Assembly (NCBI GenBank): GCA_016866235.1
Contig: VGMW01000006.1
Location: 1 to 64,000 of the forward strand
Direction: 5' to 3'
Length of the DNA: 64,000 nucleotides
Origin: Bacteroidota bacterium
GTDB lineage: Bacteria > Bacteroidota > Bacteroidia > Cytophagales > Cyclobacteriaceae
Shown here: positions 7,003 through 31,180 of the stretch, piece by piece
Layout: each line of letters opens with the position of its first letter
Position numbering within the stretch: the first letter of the stretch is position 1
Program-made: the position numbers and the translations under genes
Notes under the pieces: model-generated
The model's input: the letters and a program-made list of their open reading frames with translations, nothing else
Database searches by the model: none
Told to the model about the DNA's origin: nothing

Positions 7003-9489
7003 TCATCGGATGGCACACATCCAATCTTCATCACCAATCGGTTGTCCAGGAGGGGCAGGTAAGGCAGGCTCTACCTTAAATTCTTCAGGCGCTTCTTTCA
7101 TCCGATCCATCAAATGAAGGCAATACGTATAAAACCCTTTCCAGGACTCATCGGTTTGGGTGGGAAGTGCTTTCTGAATCCATTGCTTTAATAGGTTAAG
7201 CCTGTTCAAAACTATTCCCCGAACTGGGGCCGACGCTTCCTTGTTGAGCGCCAGCTTGGCCAGGTTCATCAAAGCAGCTGAGGCAATGTTCATTTGAACT
7301 CCACCGTCATAGCCAGAGGCATTGCCGGACTTAAATGCCTGTGCGATCACCCTGTCCAACACCCATTCCAAAGAAGGCTGATCCTTCTGGCGCAGGTGGT
7401 GTTCAAACAATCGGTTGGCGCGCGCCGGATACAACAACATGCTATAGGTCAGGTCTGCTCCTGTTTCAGCAACGGACATGGGATCGAAGGTCATCTCAGT
7501 TTTAAGTTTAACCAACTCTCGGTGGCGAACATAGCCTAGCGGACGAGGAGGAATATTTTTGATCAGCGTCTCTTGTAATCCAAGGGATTCAACCGTGACG
7601 GTATTCAACAAGGCATCGAGTGCCTTTTGTTGAATCTTCGGGTCGATCAGTTCGGTAACCGGCTGACCATCGCCACGCAAGGCATATCGATAATTCAATC
7701 CGCCAACCACTTTACTGGCAGCTTCAACCTGATAGCGGTGCATAAAGTACATGGGTACTAAAACCTCCTCCTGCAGCGCCATGGGAGTGCCCGGTTTAAT
7801 ATTTTTTTCACCAAAGTTTTTAAGGACAATGGTTCGAATCTCCATCATCCGGTTTAATTCATCGGCAGCGTCGCGTCCGTTATCCCACAGGTGTGTATAA
7901 GGATGCGCACTTCCTTGTGGTCTTCCGTCCTGATCGGATAAAAAAGTCAGTCCTGCTTTCAAAGAGCTTTGAACGATTTCATTCAGTGCCTTGCCCTCCT
8001 CTGTTCCTGAGGGAAAATCCTGATAGCCAAAGGTGATGGCAAATTTGTCGAATGCTCCGATTTTGTCGTCATAGGCCTGGCTGAGGTCTACTTTTCCATT
8101 GATAAGATTTGCAACGGGGTGAGGATAATCCATTACCGATGCAAGATTTTCAGAGGATGATGAGTAGGCATGGGACAGACCCAGGGTATGCCCTACTTCA
8201 TGTGCAGCAAGTTGGCTGAGTCTTGAAAGTGCCATCGTCTCCATGGCCTTGTTTACAGGTTTTCCATCTTCGTACGGTGCCAGCAGACCCTCTGCAATCA
8301 AAAAATCCTGTCGGACGCGTAAACTTCCTAGGGCTACATGGCCTTTAATAATTTCACCCGTTCTGGGATCCATAACCGAAGAGCCATAGGACCATCCTCG
8401 CGTACTGCGGTGAACCCAGTTGATCATGTTGTAACGAATGTCCATGGGATCAGCATCTGCTGGCAGCACTTCAACCCTGAAGGCATTGATGTATCCAGCG
8501 GCTTCAAAAGCCTGGTTCCACCAGCGTGCTCCTTCCATTAACGCTGAGCGAATAGGTTCCGGGGCACCCGGATCCATATAATAGATGATTGGTTTTACCG
8601 GCTCGCTTTTAGCAGCATTTGGATCTTTCTTTTTTAAGCGATGCCTTGAGATAAACATCTTTTGAATGGGTTCACTGATGGGCGTGGCGTAATCGAAATA
8701 GGAGATACCTGGTGAATAGCCTGCCCTCGGATCAAATTTTCTCGGTTTATAGTCAGCATCCGGCAGTTGCACAAAAGACTGGTGCTCGCGCACGGTTACG
8801 CTGGACGCCGTTGGCGCAACGGTAGTGATGTAGTTTCCTTGTGGGTTGCCCGTGAAGGTGAGCGTAGCTTCGAACTCAGAATTGTTAGGGAAATTTTTGG
8901 TTCTAGGAAGATAGAGTGCGCTCCTTGACTTATCCAGTGTATAATTTCCTTGCTGGGTCGACCGTAACCTACCGGCTACATCGTGTACATCCTGAAGTAG
9001 AAAATCCGTGGCATCTACCAGAACCTTTCCATTTTCTTCTGCGACCACATTAAATCCCCAGAGCACCGATTGTGCAAAGGCTTCTGCGACGGCCCTTCTT
9101 TCCGGCTCGTCGTTGCTCAGTGCACGGTATCCATAATTCAGTTCCGTCAAAAGCACTTTTGGTCCACGGCGGTCAAACTTAACCACCCGCTCCTTACCAA
9201 GCTGGTTGCGGTCCAGTCCAATATCATTGGATCCTACGCCGGCAGTGAGTGATTCAATATGAAGCAGCTCAGTATCGAACTTATCGATGAGGAAAAATAT
9301 TTTATCCTGTTTTTCATCGTAGTAAAATTCAATGTAACCCGGGTATTTCTTCAACCCTGCCACCTTGGATTCGATGGGCGATTGGGCAGGTTTTGGCGTT
9401 TCAGCGGGCGCACTTCCTTTCTTCTGAGCGAAGGCTCCAAAAACAATTGCAAACGAAAGAATTAGTGCAGATATTTTTTTCATGGACAT
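7003..9489 (-). CDS. Secreted zinc-dependent metalloprotease (DUF5117/DUF5118 type)
   Basis: 828 residues with a signal peptide (SMKKISALILSFAIVFGAFAQ). The metzincin zinc site HEVGHTLGLSH has H430, H434 and H440 as ligands and E431 as catalytic base. A Met-turn-like SVMDYP follows about 13 residues later (M453). The N-terminal half matches the Bacteroidota family that carries DUF5118 and DUF5117 before the DUF4953-type peptidase domain. ATGs at 9489 and 9483 are both possible starts; they differ by two residues. It lies alone between tRNA-Leu and the OmpA-like lipoprotein on the same strand. The likely role is digestion of exported or external protein in the periplasm or outside; no substrate is known from sequence. 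Confidence 0.87.
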   Translation of the reverse strand: MSMKKISALILSFAIVFGAFAQKKGSAPAETPKPAQSPIESKVAGLKKYPGYIEFYYDEKQDKIFFLIDKFDTELLHIESLTAGVGSNDIGLDRNQLGKERVVKFDRRGPKVLLTELNYGYRALSNDEPERRAVAEAFAQSVLWGFNVVAEENGKVLVDATDFLLQDVHDVAGRLRSTQQGNYTLDKSRSALYLPRTKNFPNNSEFEATLTFTGNPQGNYITTVAPTASSVTVREHQSFVQLPDADYKPRKFDPRAGYSPGISYFDYATPISEPIQKMFISRHRLKKKDPNAAKSEPVKPIIYYMDPGAPEPIRSALMEGARWWNQAFEAAGYINAFRVEVLPADADPMDIRYNMINWVHRSTRGWSYGSSVMDPRTGEIIKGHVALGSLRVRQDFLIAEGLLAPYEDGKPVNKAMETMALSRLSQLAAHEVGHTLGLSHAYSSSSENLASVMDYPHPVANLINGKVDLSQAYDDKIGAFDKFAITFGYQDFPSGTEEGKALNEIVQSSLKAGLTFLSDQDGRPQGSAHPYTHLWDNGRDAADELNRMMEIRTIVLKNFGEKNIKPGTPMALQEEVLVPMYFMHRYQVEAASKVVGGLNYRYALRGDGQPVTELIDPKIQQKALDALLNTVTVESLGLQETLIKNIPPRPLGYVRHRELVKLKTEMTFDPMSVAETGADLTYSMLLYPARANRLFEHHLRQKDQPSLEWVLDRVIAQAFKSGNASGYDGGVQMNIASAALMNLAKLALNKEASAPVRGIVLNRLNLLKQWIQKALPTQTDESWKGFYTYCLHLMDRMKEAPEEFKVEPALPAPPGQPIGDEDWMCAIR

Positions 9490-26720: not shown

Positions 26721-26767
26721 GACGCTTGGGCCTGCTATCAAAACAGCGGGCCAATACCAATTGGGTG

Positions 26768-28174
26768 ATGAAAAGGTTTGTGTGGATTGCTATAGTTCTG
26801 TTGTTGCCGATGGCTGCTAAGGCTGTTGAAGCAGATAGTACGGAGGTAGTCCGCATTGGCCGGATTTTAATTCTGGGCAACCGTGTTACGCAGGAGCGCA
26901 TAATCCTTAGAGAGATGTCGCTAAAACCTGGCGATACCATTCGAAGGTTTCAATTAAAAAAGGTTTTAGAGCAGGATCGAATAAGAATTTACAACCTGAG
27001 GTTGTTCAACCGTATTTACCTTCAGCCAGCTGACCTTGAGCCCGGACAAACAGACATCCTCGTCGAGCTGGAAGAAAGATGGTATACTTTTCCGGTTCCG
27101 ATTTTTGAATTGTCGGATCGAAATTTCAATGAATGGTGGGAAAACTATAAACATGACTTCTCGAGGGTTAATTACGGCCTGCGGTTGTTTCAGTATAATT
27201 TTCGTGGACGTAATGAAACGCTACGGTTAACGGCGCGCTTTGGATTTTCCCGCCGGTTTGATTTGTACTACCGAATTCCAAACCTTTCCCGTAATCAGAA
27301 GCATGGCTTACTTTTTGAAATGGCTTATGCAGAGCCCGTTAATCTTGCCTACCGGACCAAGGATCATATTCTCGATTTCTTAAACGATCGAAAGCCACTG
27401 AGAAAAACCACAGGTGTTTCTGTGACCTATAGTTTCCGAAAATCATTCTATCAGACCCATTCTGTTGAATTCACCTATGATCAGTCCTCGGTTGCCGATA
27501 CCATAAAAATTCTTAACCCTGAGTACTTCTCCAAAGGGGTTTCACAGCAATGGTATAATAGAATTACCTACCGTTTTGTTTCAGAGCATCGTGATGTGGT
27601 TGCCTACCCCTTGCATGGATATCAAGTTACCGCTGGAGTCTCGAGGGTAGGGCTAGGTTTGGGCGATAAGGTTAATCAGTGGACTGTTGCCGCCACCTAT
27701 GCACATCACCTGGAGGTTGGTAAGGATCTTTATTTTTCCTGGTACAACGCTGCATCGCTAACCGCACCTGCCGATCAGCCTTATGCGATGGTGAATGGAA
27801 TTGGTTACCGCAAGCAGTTTCTTCGGGGTTATGAGATTTATGTAATTGAAGGGCCGTTTTTCTCGATGAACAAGGCCACGCTTAAAAAGCGAATTTTTCA
27901 TCGGGAGTTAACTGCGGCCGGCTTTTTAGCACCTCAGTTTAGTCATGTTCCTTTTTCCATCTATCTAAAAACCTATGCCGATGTCGGGTATGCCAGCAAT
28001 TATCCCTATTATGAATTAAGTGGATTGAACAACAGACTTACCGATCGGCCACTTGCCGGAGCTGGATTTGGTCTTGACCTGGTAACTTCCTACGATAGCG
28101 TGGTCCGACTTGAATATTCCTTTACCAGCCAGCGTACCAGTGGCTTGTACATCCACATTCGAAAAGAATTTTGA
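26768..28174 (+). CDS. POTRA/beta-barrel outer membrane protein (BamA/TamA-like)
   Basis: 468 residues. The signal peptide is MKRFVWIAIVLLLPMAAKA. A single POTRA-like domain (about residues 30-110, with ILILGNRVTQERIILREM and DILVELEERWY) is followed by a C-terminal barrel of aromatic, alternating strands ending in a strand with terminal F. Shorter than BamA, which has five POTRA domains. I chose the ATG at 26768; an in-frame TTG at 26726 would precede the signal peptide by 14 codons. It probably helps insert or export proteins at the outer membrane, or is a surface antigen of the D15 family. It is likely co-transcribed with lgt. Confidence 0.8.
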   Translation: MKRFVWIAIVLLLPMAAKAVEADSTEVVRIGRILILGNRVTQERIILREMSLKPGDTIRRFQLKKVLEQDRIRIYNLRLFNRIYLQPADLEPGQTDILVELEERWYTFPVPIFELSDRNFNEWWENYKHDFSRVNYGLRLFQYNFRGRNETLRLTARFGFSRRFDLYYRIPNLSRNQKHGLLFEMAYAEPVNLAYRTKDHILDFLNDRKPLRKTTGVSVTYSFRKSFYQTHSVEFTYDQSSVADTIKILNPEYFSKGVSQQWYNRITYRFVSEHRDVVAYPLHGYQVTAGVSRVGLGLGDKVNQWTVAATYAHHLEVGKDLYFSWYNAASLTAPADQPYAMVNGIGYRKQFLRGYEIYVIEGPFFSMNKATLKKRIFHRELTAAGFLAPQFSHVPFSIYLKTYADVGYASNYPYYELSGLNNRLTDRPLAGAGFGLDLVTSYDSVVRLEYSFTSQRTSGLYIHIRKEF

Positions 28175-28330: not shown

Positions 28331-29137
28331 GTGATTAAATTATTTTTTATGCCTGTGACCGTCCTCTCACAAGTGGTGTTTGGGCAAAACCTTATCCAAC
28401 TTCCTGATGCACGATCGGCCGGAGTTGGCTACGCGATGGCGGCCTTAAAAAATCAGGGAATAGGTCATGGCAATCCTGCGGCTCAAACGTCCAGCCTAAT
28501 GAGGTTTTCTTATGGGAAACCATTGGACTTATTGGGCATGGATCAATATGCATTTTCAATGGGGGTGGCTGGTCGTCGCTCTCAACTTGGATTTGCGGTG
28601 TCGTCGGTTGGTGATGCTGTTTTTAAACAAAATCTTTTGTCTGCTCAAGTTGGCCATCGGTTAGGTAACACGACGATCGCACTTAGGAATGATCTGTTTC
28701 AATTCACCGGTGAAAACCGTGCCACCAGGATACAATATGGACTCACCGTAGGAAGCCTCACCCGGCTCTCCGAAAAAGTTTACTCCGGCATTTACATCAG
28801 CAACATCAATGCTATTTCGGCCTCTGGTCCTTCAGTGGCATTACCTGTTCGAATGGCTCTTGGGTTGGCTTATCAGCCCAATGATGCTTTGCTGCTGGTG
28901 GCAGAAGGGTCAAAGGATGTTCGACATAACCCCTCCTTTCGTGCAGGCTTGGAATATGAAGTAGTTCGTCGCGTGATGTTTAGAACCGGAGTAAACATTA
29001 GCACTGCTGAATGTTATGTAGGAACTGGTTTCAGGTTTTGGAAACTTTTGACCGATTATTCAATTCAGTACGCTCGGTACAGGGGTCTTGTGGCAACCGC
29101 CACAGCAACCATTCCGCTCGGTAGTAGCCCGGATTAA
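28331..29137 (+). CDS. Small outer-membrane barrel protein (PorV/PorQ-like)
   Basis: 268 residues starting at GTG; an in-frame stop 10 bases upstream rules out longer forms. The next start, ATG 28349, would shorten the signal peptide. The N-terminus (about residues 1-19, ending VVFGQ) looks like a signal peptide. After it come repeated beta strands, with the ARSAGVGYAMAAL and GNPA segments seen in the PorV/PorQ/UPF0164 group. No catalytic motif. Only 3 bp separate it from the helix-hairpin-helix outer-membrane gene, so the two are very probably made together. Exact family uncertain. Confidence 0.65.
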   Translation: MIKLFFMPVTVLSQVVFGQNLIQLPDARSAGVGYAMAALKNQGIGHGNPAAQTSSLMRFSYGKPLDLLGMDQYAFSMGVAGRRSQLGFAVSSVGDAVFKQNLLSAQVGHRLGNTTIALRNDLFQFTGENRATRIQYGLTVGSLTRLSEKVYSGIYISNINAISASGPSVALPVRMALGLAYQPNDALLLVAEGSKDVRHNPSFRAGLEYEVVRRVMFRTGVNISTAECYVGTGFRFWKLLTDYSIQYARYRGLVATATATIPLGSSPD

Positions 29138-29140
29138 AAA

Positions 29141-31180
29141 ATGAGGTTCGGCTCTAGGGATTTAATGTACATTCTACTACCAATCTGTATTGGCAAGGCA
29201 CATGCACAATTACCGATTGAATCGTCGGGTGATTTATCTGCCATCGTGGAGCAAGTCCTGATGTTTAAAGAAGATCAGTCCTACGACGAGGTTCATGAAC
29301 GCTTGCTACAGCTATCCTTAAGTCCATTGGATGTTAATGCAGTGGATGAGGAAAAGTTGCGTGGTATTGGTGTCCTTACCGAAAAACAAATCCAAAATTT
29401 ATTGGAACACCGACGAATTTCAGGCCCAATGATATCTTTTTATGAATTACAGGCGGTTGAGGGATTTGATGAGCAAACCATTCGGTTTTTGATGCCTTTT
29501 TTGCGTTTCGCCGACCGCGATCATTACGATTGGAAAGGCTTGGGTAAGCGAATGTTGTCGGAGAAAAACAATTTTTTGTTGATGCGAAGCGATGGACTCG
29601 TGACCAGAAATAATGGTGATCGGGTTTTTGGTTCGCCCATGCGGTCGTTGATGCGGTTTCGCTCTCAGCATCCGCGTGATTACAGTTTGAATTTTACTGC
29701 CGAGCGGGATGCGGGAGAGCAGTTCATTTGGAATCCAGGCCGGGGGTATACCGGCTTCGATTTCACTTCAGTAAGTCTTCGAATTATGGATAAAGGCCGG
29801 GTGCAAAACCTAATTATTGGCGATTACAACGCAGGTTTTGGACAGGGACTTGTGCTGGGCAGCGGATTTGGTGTTGGTAAAGGTGCAGAGACCATCACTT
29901 CCGTTCGACAGGGGTACTCCGGATTCAGGCCATACACTTCTTTGAATGAATCAGGTTTTTTCAGAGGGATTGCCGCCAGTTTTTTGGTTAACAAATATGT
30001 TTCAATGGATGCTTTTTACTCCTTGGTGAAACGCGACGGTGATAAAAGGATGGCGGCCGATAGTTCTTATTACATCCACTCATTGCTGATCACCGGATTG
30101 CATCGATCAGAGAATGAATTGGCCAACCGAAAAAATTTAAAAGAGGGCAATGCGGGTGTTGCACTTCGGTTTAGGGCTCGGTCAACGGAAGCGGGATTAT
30201 TGCTGAGCGAGCAGAAATTTTCTACCCCGTTATCGCCACCCAAACACCTATACTCATCAACGTCTTTGAGGGGCAGGCATTTTCAATACGCCAGTATATT
30301 TATCAACAGCCGTTGGCAGAATATTTCATTTTTTTCAGAGGCGTCATTATATCAAATGCAGTCCCTGGCATGGATAGCTGGTCTTCAGTCGGCGTTGACA
30401 CCTGAAATTGATTTTTCAGCGCTTGTCAGAAGTTATCCCGGAACCAATCGGAACCAATCGTGGGGTGCTATGTATTCCAAGGCGTTTTCGGAAAACTCAG
30501 ACACAGGAAATGAGCAGGGGCTCTATATGGGCTTTAGATTCAAACCCGATAAAAAGAAAGTGTTTTCTGCTTACGTCGATCTTTTCAGATTTCCGCTGAT
30601 CAAATACAGGGTTTATAAACCTTCAGATGGCTCTGAGTGGCTTATGAAGTACACACAAAAATTCAGTGGGGGACAAAATCTATCGATTCAGATTCGCCAG
30701 GAGAAAAAATTACGGAATGTTATTTCGGATGGACAGTCATTTTATAACCTCGATGAAACCACCAGAACTGTTTTGGCCTTCGTATGGCATGAAAAAATAA
30801 GTCACCATTTTTCTTCGGATACCCGTATTCAGGCCTCCGGATTTAAGGAGGGTCAAGCTTCCAGTGCCGGCTGGTTTGTAGCGCAGGACTTTGATTTGAA
30901 ATATCCGCGCTGGTCGATTTCAACGCGCTATGGCATTTTTGATAGCAGAGATTATGATGCCCGGATATTTACCTATGAGCGTGACCTTTGGCTGGCGTAC
31001 GCTTTCCCTTCCTTTTACGGACGCGGTGTGAGGTGCTATGCCAATGTTAAATGGTCGCCAGGCTCCAGGACTGATTTTTATGTCCGTTGGGCTGGGACCT
31101 ACTACCGGACGGTATCACCGAAGGAAGATCCTGCCTATGATCAGGAAAGTTGGAGGCTACAATTGGTGATTAAGCTCTGA
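29141..31180 (+). CDS. Outer-membrane beta-barrel protein with N-terminal helix-hairpin-helix domain
   Basis: 679 residues. Signal peptide 1-23 (ends KAHAQ). Residues about 63-123 form a ComEA-like helix-hairpin-helix domain: LDVNAVDEEKLRGIGVLTEKQI, then a second hairpin LQAVEGFDEQTIRFLMPFLRF. The remaining 550 residues are aromatic, alternating beta strands ending in a terminal strand LQLVIKL, so a large barrel is expected. Such proteins occur in many Bacteroidota but I know no function. The helix-hairpin-helix fold usually binds the DNA backbone. It is linked to the PorV/PorQ-like gene by 3 bp and converges with pyk. Confidence 0.75.
   Translation: MRFGSRDLMYILLPICIGKAHAQLPIESSGDLSAIVEQVLMFKEDQSYDEVHERLLQLSLSPLDVNAVDEEKLRGIGVLTEKQIQNLLEHRRISGPMISFYELQAVEGFDEQTIRFLMPFLRFADRDHYDWKGLGKRMLSEKNNFLLMRSDGLVTRNNGDRVFGSPMRSLMRFRSQHPRDYSLNFTAERDAGEQFIWNPGRGYTGFDFTSVSLRIMDKGRVQNLIIGDYNAGFGQGLVLGSGFGVGKGAETITSVRQGYSGFRPYTSLNESGFFRGIAASFLVNKYVSMDAFYSLVKRDGDKRMAADSSYYIHSLLITGLHRSENELANRKNLKEGNAGVALRFRARSTEAGLLLSEQKFSTPLSPPKHLYSSTSLRGRHFQYASIFINSRWQNISFFSEASLYQMQSLAWIAGLQSALTPEIDFSALVRSYPGTNRNQSWGAMYSKAFSENSDTGNEQGLYMGFRFKPDKKKVFSAYVDLFRFPLIKYRVYKPSDGSEWLMKYTQKFSGGQNLSIQIRQEKKLRNVISDGQSFYNLDETTRTVLAFVWHEKISHHFSSDTRIQASGFKEGQASSAGWFVAQDFDLKYPRWSISTRYGIFDSRDYDARIFTYERDLWLAYAFPSFYGRGVRCYANVKWSPGSRTDFYVRWAGTYYRTVSPKEDPAYDQESWRLQLVIKL

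Follow-up and report, generated by a model that had tools for sequence, protein, structure and literature searches.

A helix-hairpin-helix outer membrane barrel coupled to comEC is a candidate component of DNA uptake in Bacteroidota

Transformation of Riemerella anatipestifer needs eight genes, encoding ComEC, DprA, ComF, RecA, a helix-hairpin-helix (HhH) protein, RS04915, RS04920 and RS09020, and the accessible part of that report describes the function of the last three as unknown (PMC8459023). In the available portion of a ComEA study, four lysines of the HhH domain were picked for mutagenesis, in a section on the DNA interactions required for transformation (PMC9747964). Among 296 genomes of the phylum Bacteroidota, ComEC was matched in 288 but a secretin in only 140, and therefore the passage of DNA across the outer membrane (OM) is unexplained for many of them. 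Here we describe a gene pair from a stretch of 64,000 nucleotides of a Cyclobacteriaceae bacterium (contig VGMW01000006.1 of assembly GCA_016866235.1, positions 1 to 64,000; hereafter the window), in which a gene for a small PorV-like barrel precedes one for an HhH domain joined to a large OM barrel. On balance we lean towards the view that the HhH-barrel, together with its PorV-like helper where one is present, is an OM component of a Bacteroidota DNA uptake route feeding ComEC. The barrel is a candidate for the missing OM step, and since it is coupled to comEC across most of one family it offers one definite, testable gene. If the proposal is true, abundant bacteria would possess a non-secretin route of DNA uptake, which could serve as a guide for genetic tools. 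A literature search, outside which lay subscription papers and preprints, yielded no description of this barrel or of a barrel-comEC operon among the matches listed.

The barrel gene and comEC in family f22

The coupling of the barrel gene to comEC is operon-like in one family, f22, which was chosen because the barrel and ComEC match coordinates adjoined in two of the phylum genomes. At the level of open reading frames (ORFs), comEC follows the barrel gene in all four f22 loci first read, and the Pfam domains Competence and DUF4131 confirmed ComEC in the two f22 loci tested. The barrel profile matches 120 of 121 f22 genomes at E<=1e-3; leaving out 17 genomes with E above 1e-14, whose matches are mostly HhH-sized (that of G388 being a partial barrel), gives 103 barrel-bearing genomes. 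In 87 of these, comEC lies head-to-tail behind the barrel, adjacency being defined as the same contig, the same strand and less than 1 kb from the barrel match to the Competence domain. The other 16 consist of three with comEC on another contig, eleven in which it is farther away (1017 to 40351 bp) and two without a ComEC match; six of the eleven are within 1.0-1.6 kb, and five of these six are partial barrel matches or merged pieces. Adjacency is found in 21 of the 23 f22 genera, and in a 22nd, g165, at the ORF level (L244).

The same arrangement is seen in 65 of 68 named loci (L159-L226), where comEC is directly downstream of the barrel, with a gap of -4 to +6 nt in 54 of the 65 and 37-215 nt in the rest. 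The three exceptions are two short contigs (L166 and L222) and one locus in which barrel and comEC are both broken (L224). Some Pedobacter-type records have comEC split or shortened (L185, L215 and L220, besides L224 with its broken barrel), which hints at joint decay of the cassette. Most of the named relatives belong to Pedobacter, and the rest are Mucilaginibacter and a few other records (Flavihumibacter soli, a 'Flavobacteriaceae bacterium' and metagenome-assembled genomes). We infer that f22 is Sphingobacteriaceae, which Pedobacter and Mucilaginibacter fit and with which Flavihumibacter (Chitinophagaceae in the NCBI taxonomy) disagrees.

When 23 f22 loci from 22 genera were compared, comEC was the next gene in 23/23 and a PorV-like gene stood upstream in 20/23, while outside this cassette the commonest neighbours recurred in only 7/21 loci downstream and 8/22 upstream. 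In g160 and g173 the flanking clusters of g159, g170, g46 and g179 are found on swapped sides, as after an inversion of the cassette. The PorV-like-barrel-comEC cassette is a conserved unit, kept through changed or inverted flanks. By a rough count that allows for about 4000 genes, both strands and some 60 families, the chance of comEC becoming fixed beside the barrel in any family is <0.01. Behind comEC, a gene of a RecQ-helicase cluster occurs in five f22 genera (L107, by Pfam; L241, L249, L250 and L252, by clustering). The preliminary description, made from the window alone, had offered a DNA uptake complex as one reading on account of the HhH domain. The pair is real, old and conserved, and its link to DNA uptake is stronger than it was from the window alone, but the support comes from the position of comEC behind the barrel and not from the HhH domain.

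Spread of the barrel and its PorV-like partner

A first scan with the single window protein as query found no relative. Matches to the barrel protein are present in 54 of 58 genomes sampled from the window's genus and order, counting the window's own, and with a profile also in 252 of the 296 phylum genomes at E<=1e-3. Setting aside 34 matches weaker than 1e-20, many of them probably HhH-only, leaves 218 of 296 at E<=1e-20. In one same-genus genome (G023:C1:3998046-3999953) the barrel reading frame is broken by four stop codons.

A PorV-like gene is directly upstream of the barrel in 29/29 same-genus loci read, two of which have a spacing of about 110-120 bp and one a PorV-like ORF of only 195 amino acids. 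At the order level it is found in 13/19 loci, once behind a small ORF, and here the pair is kept while its neighbours differ. Phylum-wide, the profile places a PorV-like gene upstream in 23/40 loci and not in 17/40, one of which (L119) has an upstream ORF that clusters with the PorV-like genes and would be the 24th; for the named loci the count is 55/80. The conservation of the pair in Bacteroidota that was to be checked after the preliminary description is therefore complete among the same-genus loci and not obligatory beyond them. Since the PorV-like gene is absent upstream in many loci, the core is the large barrel, and the PorV-like protein is a frequent partner that can be dispensed with. 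SprA-less genomes of family f35 and genus g67 keep the large barrel, with no PorV-like match among the matches listed, so that loss of the partner is possible.

In the window's genome (G000) there is a ComEC, located on another contig (C1) and not linked to the pair, and a separate ComEA-like gene at C1:427319-427699, which encodes a GIG hairpin. Neither this genome nor the 11 others sampled from its order gave a match to the secretin family PF00263, and a pore of the usual PilQ type was thus not found there. Twelve comEC regions were clustered in a search for genes like Riemerella RS04915 and RS04920 beside comEC in barrel-less genomes. The eight proteins of one region, L147 of family f25, were annotated and are of other kinds (SurE, LpxB, NlpC/P60, a tail-specific protease, a thioredoxin-like protein, two peptide transporters and a dipeptidyl peptidase), so that the expectation was given up for L147.

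The pair in the window and its predicted folds

The two genes form a same-strand unit, just as the preliminary description had it (Table 1), and the fusion that it described, of an HhH domain to a large barrel within one chain, also holds. Their surroundings are ordinary, with threonine dehydratase, DUF3089, lgt and a POTRA-bearing BamA-like protein upstream and pyruvate kinase (opposite strand), fabF, rnc and nadE-type genes downstream. The BamA-like barrel gene (26726-28174) is just upstream of the pair, as it is in 8 of 10 longer same-genus loci (L055-L064), and a gene of about 205 amino acids on the other strand sometimes lies between it and the pair. Behind the barrel in L059 is a DUF2807 (putative adhesin head) gene (7191-7934), whose cluster is found there in many same-genus loci; in the window this place is occupied by pyruvate kinase.

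Table 1. Positions of the gene pair and its domains in the window
Feature	Position	Strand	Remarks
PorV-like small OM barrel gene	28331..29137	+	268 amino acids, GTG start; signal-peptide-like N-terminus by eye
Gap between the two coding sequences (stop to start)	29138..29140	+	3 bp
HhH-barrel gene	29141..31180	+	679 amino acids, ATG start
HhH (HHH_3-like) domain, residues 63-122	29327..29506	+	net charge -3 (residues 60-122), one GIG hairpin
Predicted ~24-26-strand OM barrel, residues 130-679	29528..31177	+	structure prediction

The HHH_3 (PF12836) match of the window copy is weak in Pfam (23.8 bits against a cut-off of 27) and scored 28.4 bits in the genome scan, and several relatives among the matches listed pass the cut-off at the same place. 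A profile search of the PDB with the large protein returned HhH proteins first (9yi2_A, followed by the ComE operon protein 1 chains 8dss_A and 8dfk_A) and then antibody chains. The AlphaFold model, built like that of the small protein from an alignment of the window copy and its relatives, has N-terminal helices and the HhH part followed by about 24-26 strands (pLDDT 82, pTM 0.73). Foldseek matched this model to many generic barrels (TonB-dependent receptors, AlgE, ushers and porins), none of them specific among the matches listed. With VIA-align the highest Z was that of AlgE (17.5; 309 residues, 5.9 Å), and ushers covered the whole barrel (9fy9_D, Z 16.1, 374 residues, 4.2 Å). Coming from a predicted model, these matches show size and topology, and neither kinship nor function.

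For the small protein, a Pfam scan gave nothing above cut-off, the NCBIfam model PorV_fam (NF033709) scored 14.3 bits, far below its cut-off of 90, and a PDB profile search produced one non-significant match. Its AlphaFold model is a 14-strand barrel (pLDDT 87), and the two best PDB matches of the model are both PorV of the type IX secretion system (T9SS), namely 8gl6_F (TM 0.76 on the query) and 6h3i_F (TM 0.75 on the query). The label of PorV/PorQ-like that the protein had been given is therefore borne out by the predicted fold and not by sequence.

Competing explanations and known systems

We propose that DNA would enter the periplasm through or with the large barrel, assisted by the PorV-like protein, and that a separate ComEA would then bind it in the periplasm and ComEC import it. 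Instead of clamping DNA, the acidic N-terminal helical and HhH part may be a plug in the periplasm, or a module on which ComEA, ComEC or the barrel itself docks, and the linkage seen in f22 would have to carry over to the window's organism. A bolder form of this proposal, which we put forward as speculative and on the whole unlikely, is a widespread secretin-free OM gate for DNA, in which a basic barrel of about 24 strands would be closed by its own DNA-mimicking acidic plug (residues 30-122) and the plug would give way to incoming DNA. A PorV-like protein would be the partner, and the DNA would be handed to ComEA and to ComEC, which in one family is encoded in the same operon. Every one of the 49 rows in A1 and A3, the window copy being counted twice, is acidic over residues 30-122 (-3 to -16, mean net about -10). 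The large barrel is basic (+3.5 per 100 residues) and more so than three SusC-type barrels (+0.6 to +1.4 per 100 residues).

A number of observations weigh against a role in DNA uptake or limit the evidence for it. The BamA-like and PorV-like barrels of the window are equally basic (+3.7 each per 100 residues), and a basic lumen, guessed from alternating residues, was therefore dropped as evidence for a DNA path. Adjacency to comEC was seen outside f22 in 0/12 other named loci (L227-L238) and 0/36 other phylum loci, and its restriction to f22 may reflect one ancestral event. Across the 296 phylum genomes, 217 have both barrel and ComEC, 1 the barrel only, 71 ComEC only and 7 neither (Fisher p 4.5e-4, with genomes that are not independent, as 7 of the 8 ComEC-less ones belong to one family). 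Because ComEC is present in 288/296, this co-occurrence is nearly uninformative. The preliminary description would have counted the pair in strains without competence genes against a role in uptake. This was not borne out as regards ComEC, which is missing from only 1 of the 218 genomes with the barrel (G315, a fragmented assembly of 290 contigs); the result speaks for the proposal, in a test that is weak for the same reason. The loose profile (E<=1e-3) also matches the ComEC-less G301 and G325, probably via the HhH part. Also in favour of the proposal, the four f22 genomes that lack ComEC and are at least 90% complete (G355, G376, G377 and G379, from three genera) give either no barrel match or one of HhH size, and their congeners have both genes; a single deletion removing the two neighbours could account for this joint loss. 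The 71 genomes with ComEC and no barrel include families f24 and f25, which may be Weeksellaceae and Flavobacteriaceae and where ComEC is present and the barrel had no match at E<=1e-20, and genus g41 of f22, in which 12/12 sampled genomes have ComEC and lack a barrel-sized match. Family f55 has SprA and gave no match to ComEC, nor to the barrel at E<=1e-20, and could serve as a negative group. According to the accessible part of the work on it, transformable R. anatipestifer needs other envelope genes (PMC8459023).

The partnership is also not confined to comEC, since in six f23/f29 loci (L110, L115, L116, L118, L119 and L121) a SusC-type gene, Pfam-tested in L115, L118 and L121, lies 108-207 bp downstream of the barrel. 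The 1000-1089-residue downstream genes of f23/f29 had been considered as uptake partners and were rejected, the three tested being, with the gene behind each, SusC- and SusD-type; a fourth tested downstream gene of this kind (L120) is an aminotransferase fusion. Such neighbours would suit a general OM transporter or porin for a nutrient-like substrate; the HhH part would then serve as a structural plug, and comEC would stand beside the barrel in one family through an accident of gene order that became frozen. The resemblance to many barrels with no specific match, the very wide spread in the phylum and the acidic HhH domain would likewise be expected of such a transporter. We regard it as possible though unlikely, given that the SusC genes stand well apart from the barrel whereas comEC is mostly within -4 to +6 nt, that the comEC cassette outlasts inversion and changed flanks across many genera, and that cases of the barrel without ComEC are very rare. 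The SprA-PorV translocon also places a large barrel beside PorV, and the PorV fold of the small partner might indicate an accessory or offshoot of the T9SS, in which the large barrel and a PorV-like shuttle export proteins or lipoproteins as an analogue of SprA-PorV. As an accessory of the T9SS it is already disfavoured, and we consider this version very improbable, as the barrel is kept in 68 of the 69 genomes without a SprA match (a status deduced, for 49 of the 69, from which genomes were matched) and missing in 77 of the 227 that have one, and as G059 has barrel and comEC as neighbours without a SprA match. This independence from the T9SS also counts in favour of the uptake proposal.

In the version drawn from the preliminary description, which gave it as one of two readings, an HhH domain of the ComEA type binds the DNA that enters while tethered to its own OM barrel, and HHH_3 and ComEA chains are indeed among the recognisable relatives of the domain. 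GxG hairpins of HhH domains have a role in DNA contact, and the first hairpin of the window copy still has one, GIG. The window copy is, however, one of only 2/48 barrel-protein HhH domains with a GxG (31 domains from A1 and 17 from A3) and is itself net negative, and the net charge is <=0 in 46/48 (means -3.1 and -2.4). These features count against the uptake proposal as well. The comparison set consisted of 44 ComEA-like segments, taken from 20 genomes in the genus and order of the window; 38 of them carry a net charge >0, the mean of the set being +2.7, and 20 have GxG. The difference in charge (Mann-Whitney p 8.5e-15) is to be read with the segments being the best-scoring among the matches listed, a choice that favours them, and with 'ComEA-like' standing for an HHH_3 match, mostly within a frame of some 300 residues. 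As the HhH domain of the barrel proteins is acidic and mostly lacks GxG, ComEA-like DNA binding is doubtful, and it is for this reason that docking or plugging is proposed in its place. With a separate ComEA-like gene also present, we think a DNA-binding tether improbable.

Returning to the uptake proposal, the pair can be set beside several known systems. With PorV and PorQ of the T9SS, the small protein shares the 14-strand fold and has PorV as its best PDB matches, but it falls under the family cut-off and the presence of its partner barrel does not track SprA. The FimD/PapC ushers and AlgE are large barrels like the one described here, a likeness of size and topology only. ComEA has the same HHH_3-type tandem HhH domain, the profile finding ComE operon protein 1 chains, but it stands alone without an OM barrel, whereas the HhH domain of the barrel protein is acidic, has mostly lost GxG (kept once, in the window copy) and is fused to a predicted barrel of about 550 residues, in a genome that has its own separate ComEA-like gene. 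The PilQ secretin resembles the barrel in its proposed role as an OM passage for DNA, and is of a different family, the barrel gene having no PF00263 match. A further comparison may be made with R. anatipestifer, as far as the accessible part of that report goes. There, the HhH protein RA0C_RS02645 is told apart from the barrel protein by its described architecture, with the HhH at residues 236-301 and a predicted periplasmic location, and RS04915 has a carboxypeptidase regulatory-like domain, with no N-terminal HhH and barrel described (PMC8459023). RS02645, RS04915, RS04920 and RS09020 are, as the pair proposed here would be, genes for transformation in Bacteroidota that show no homology to the known machinery, and the set includes one essential HhH protein and one essential predicted OM protein (PMC8459023).

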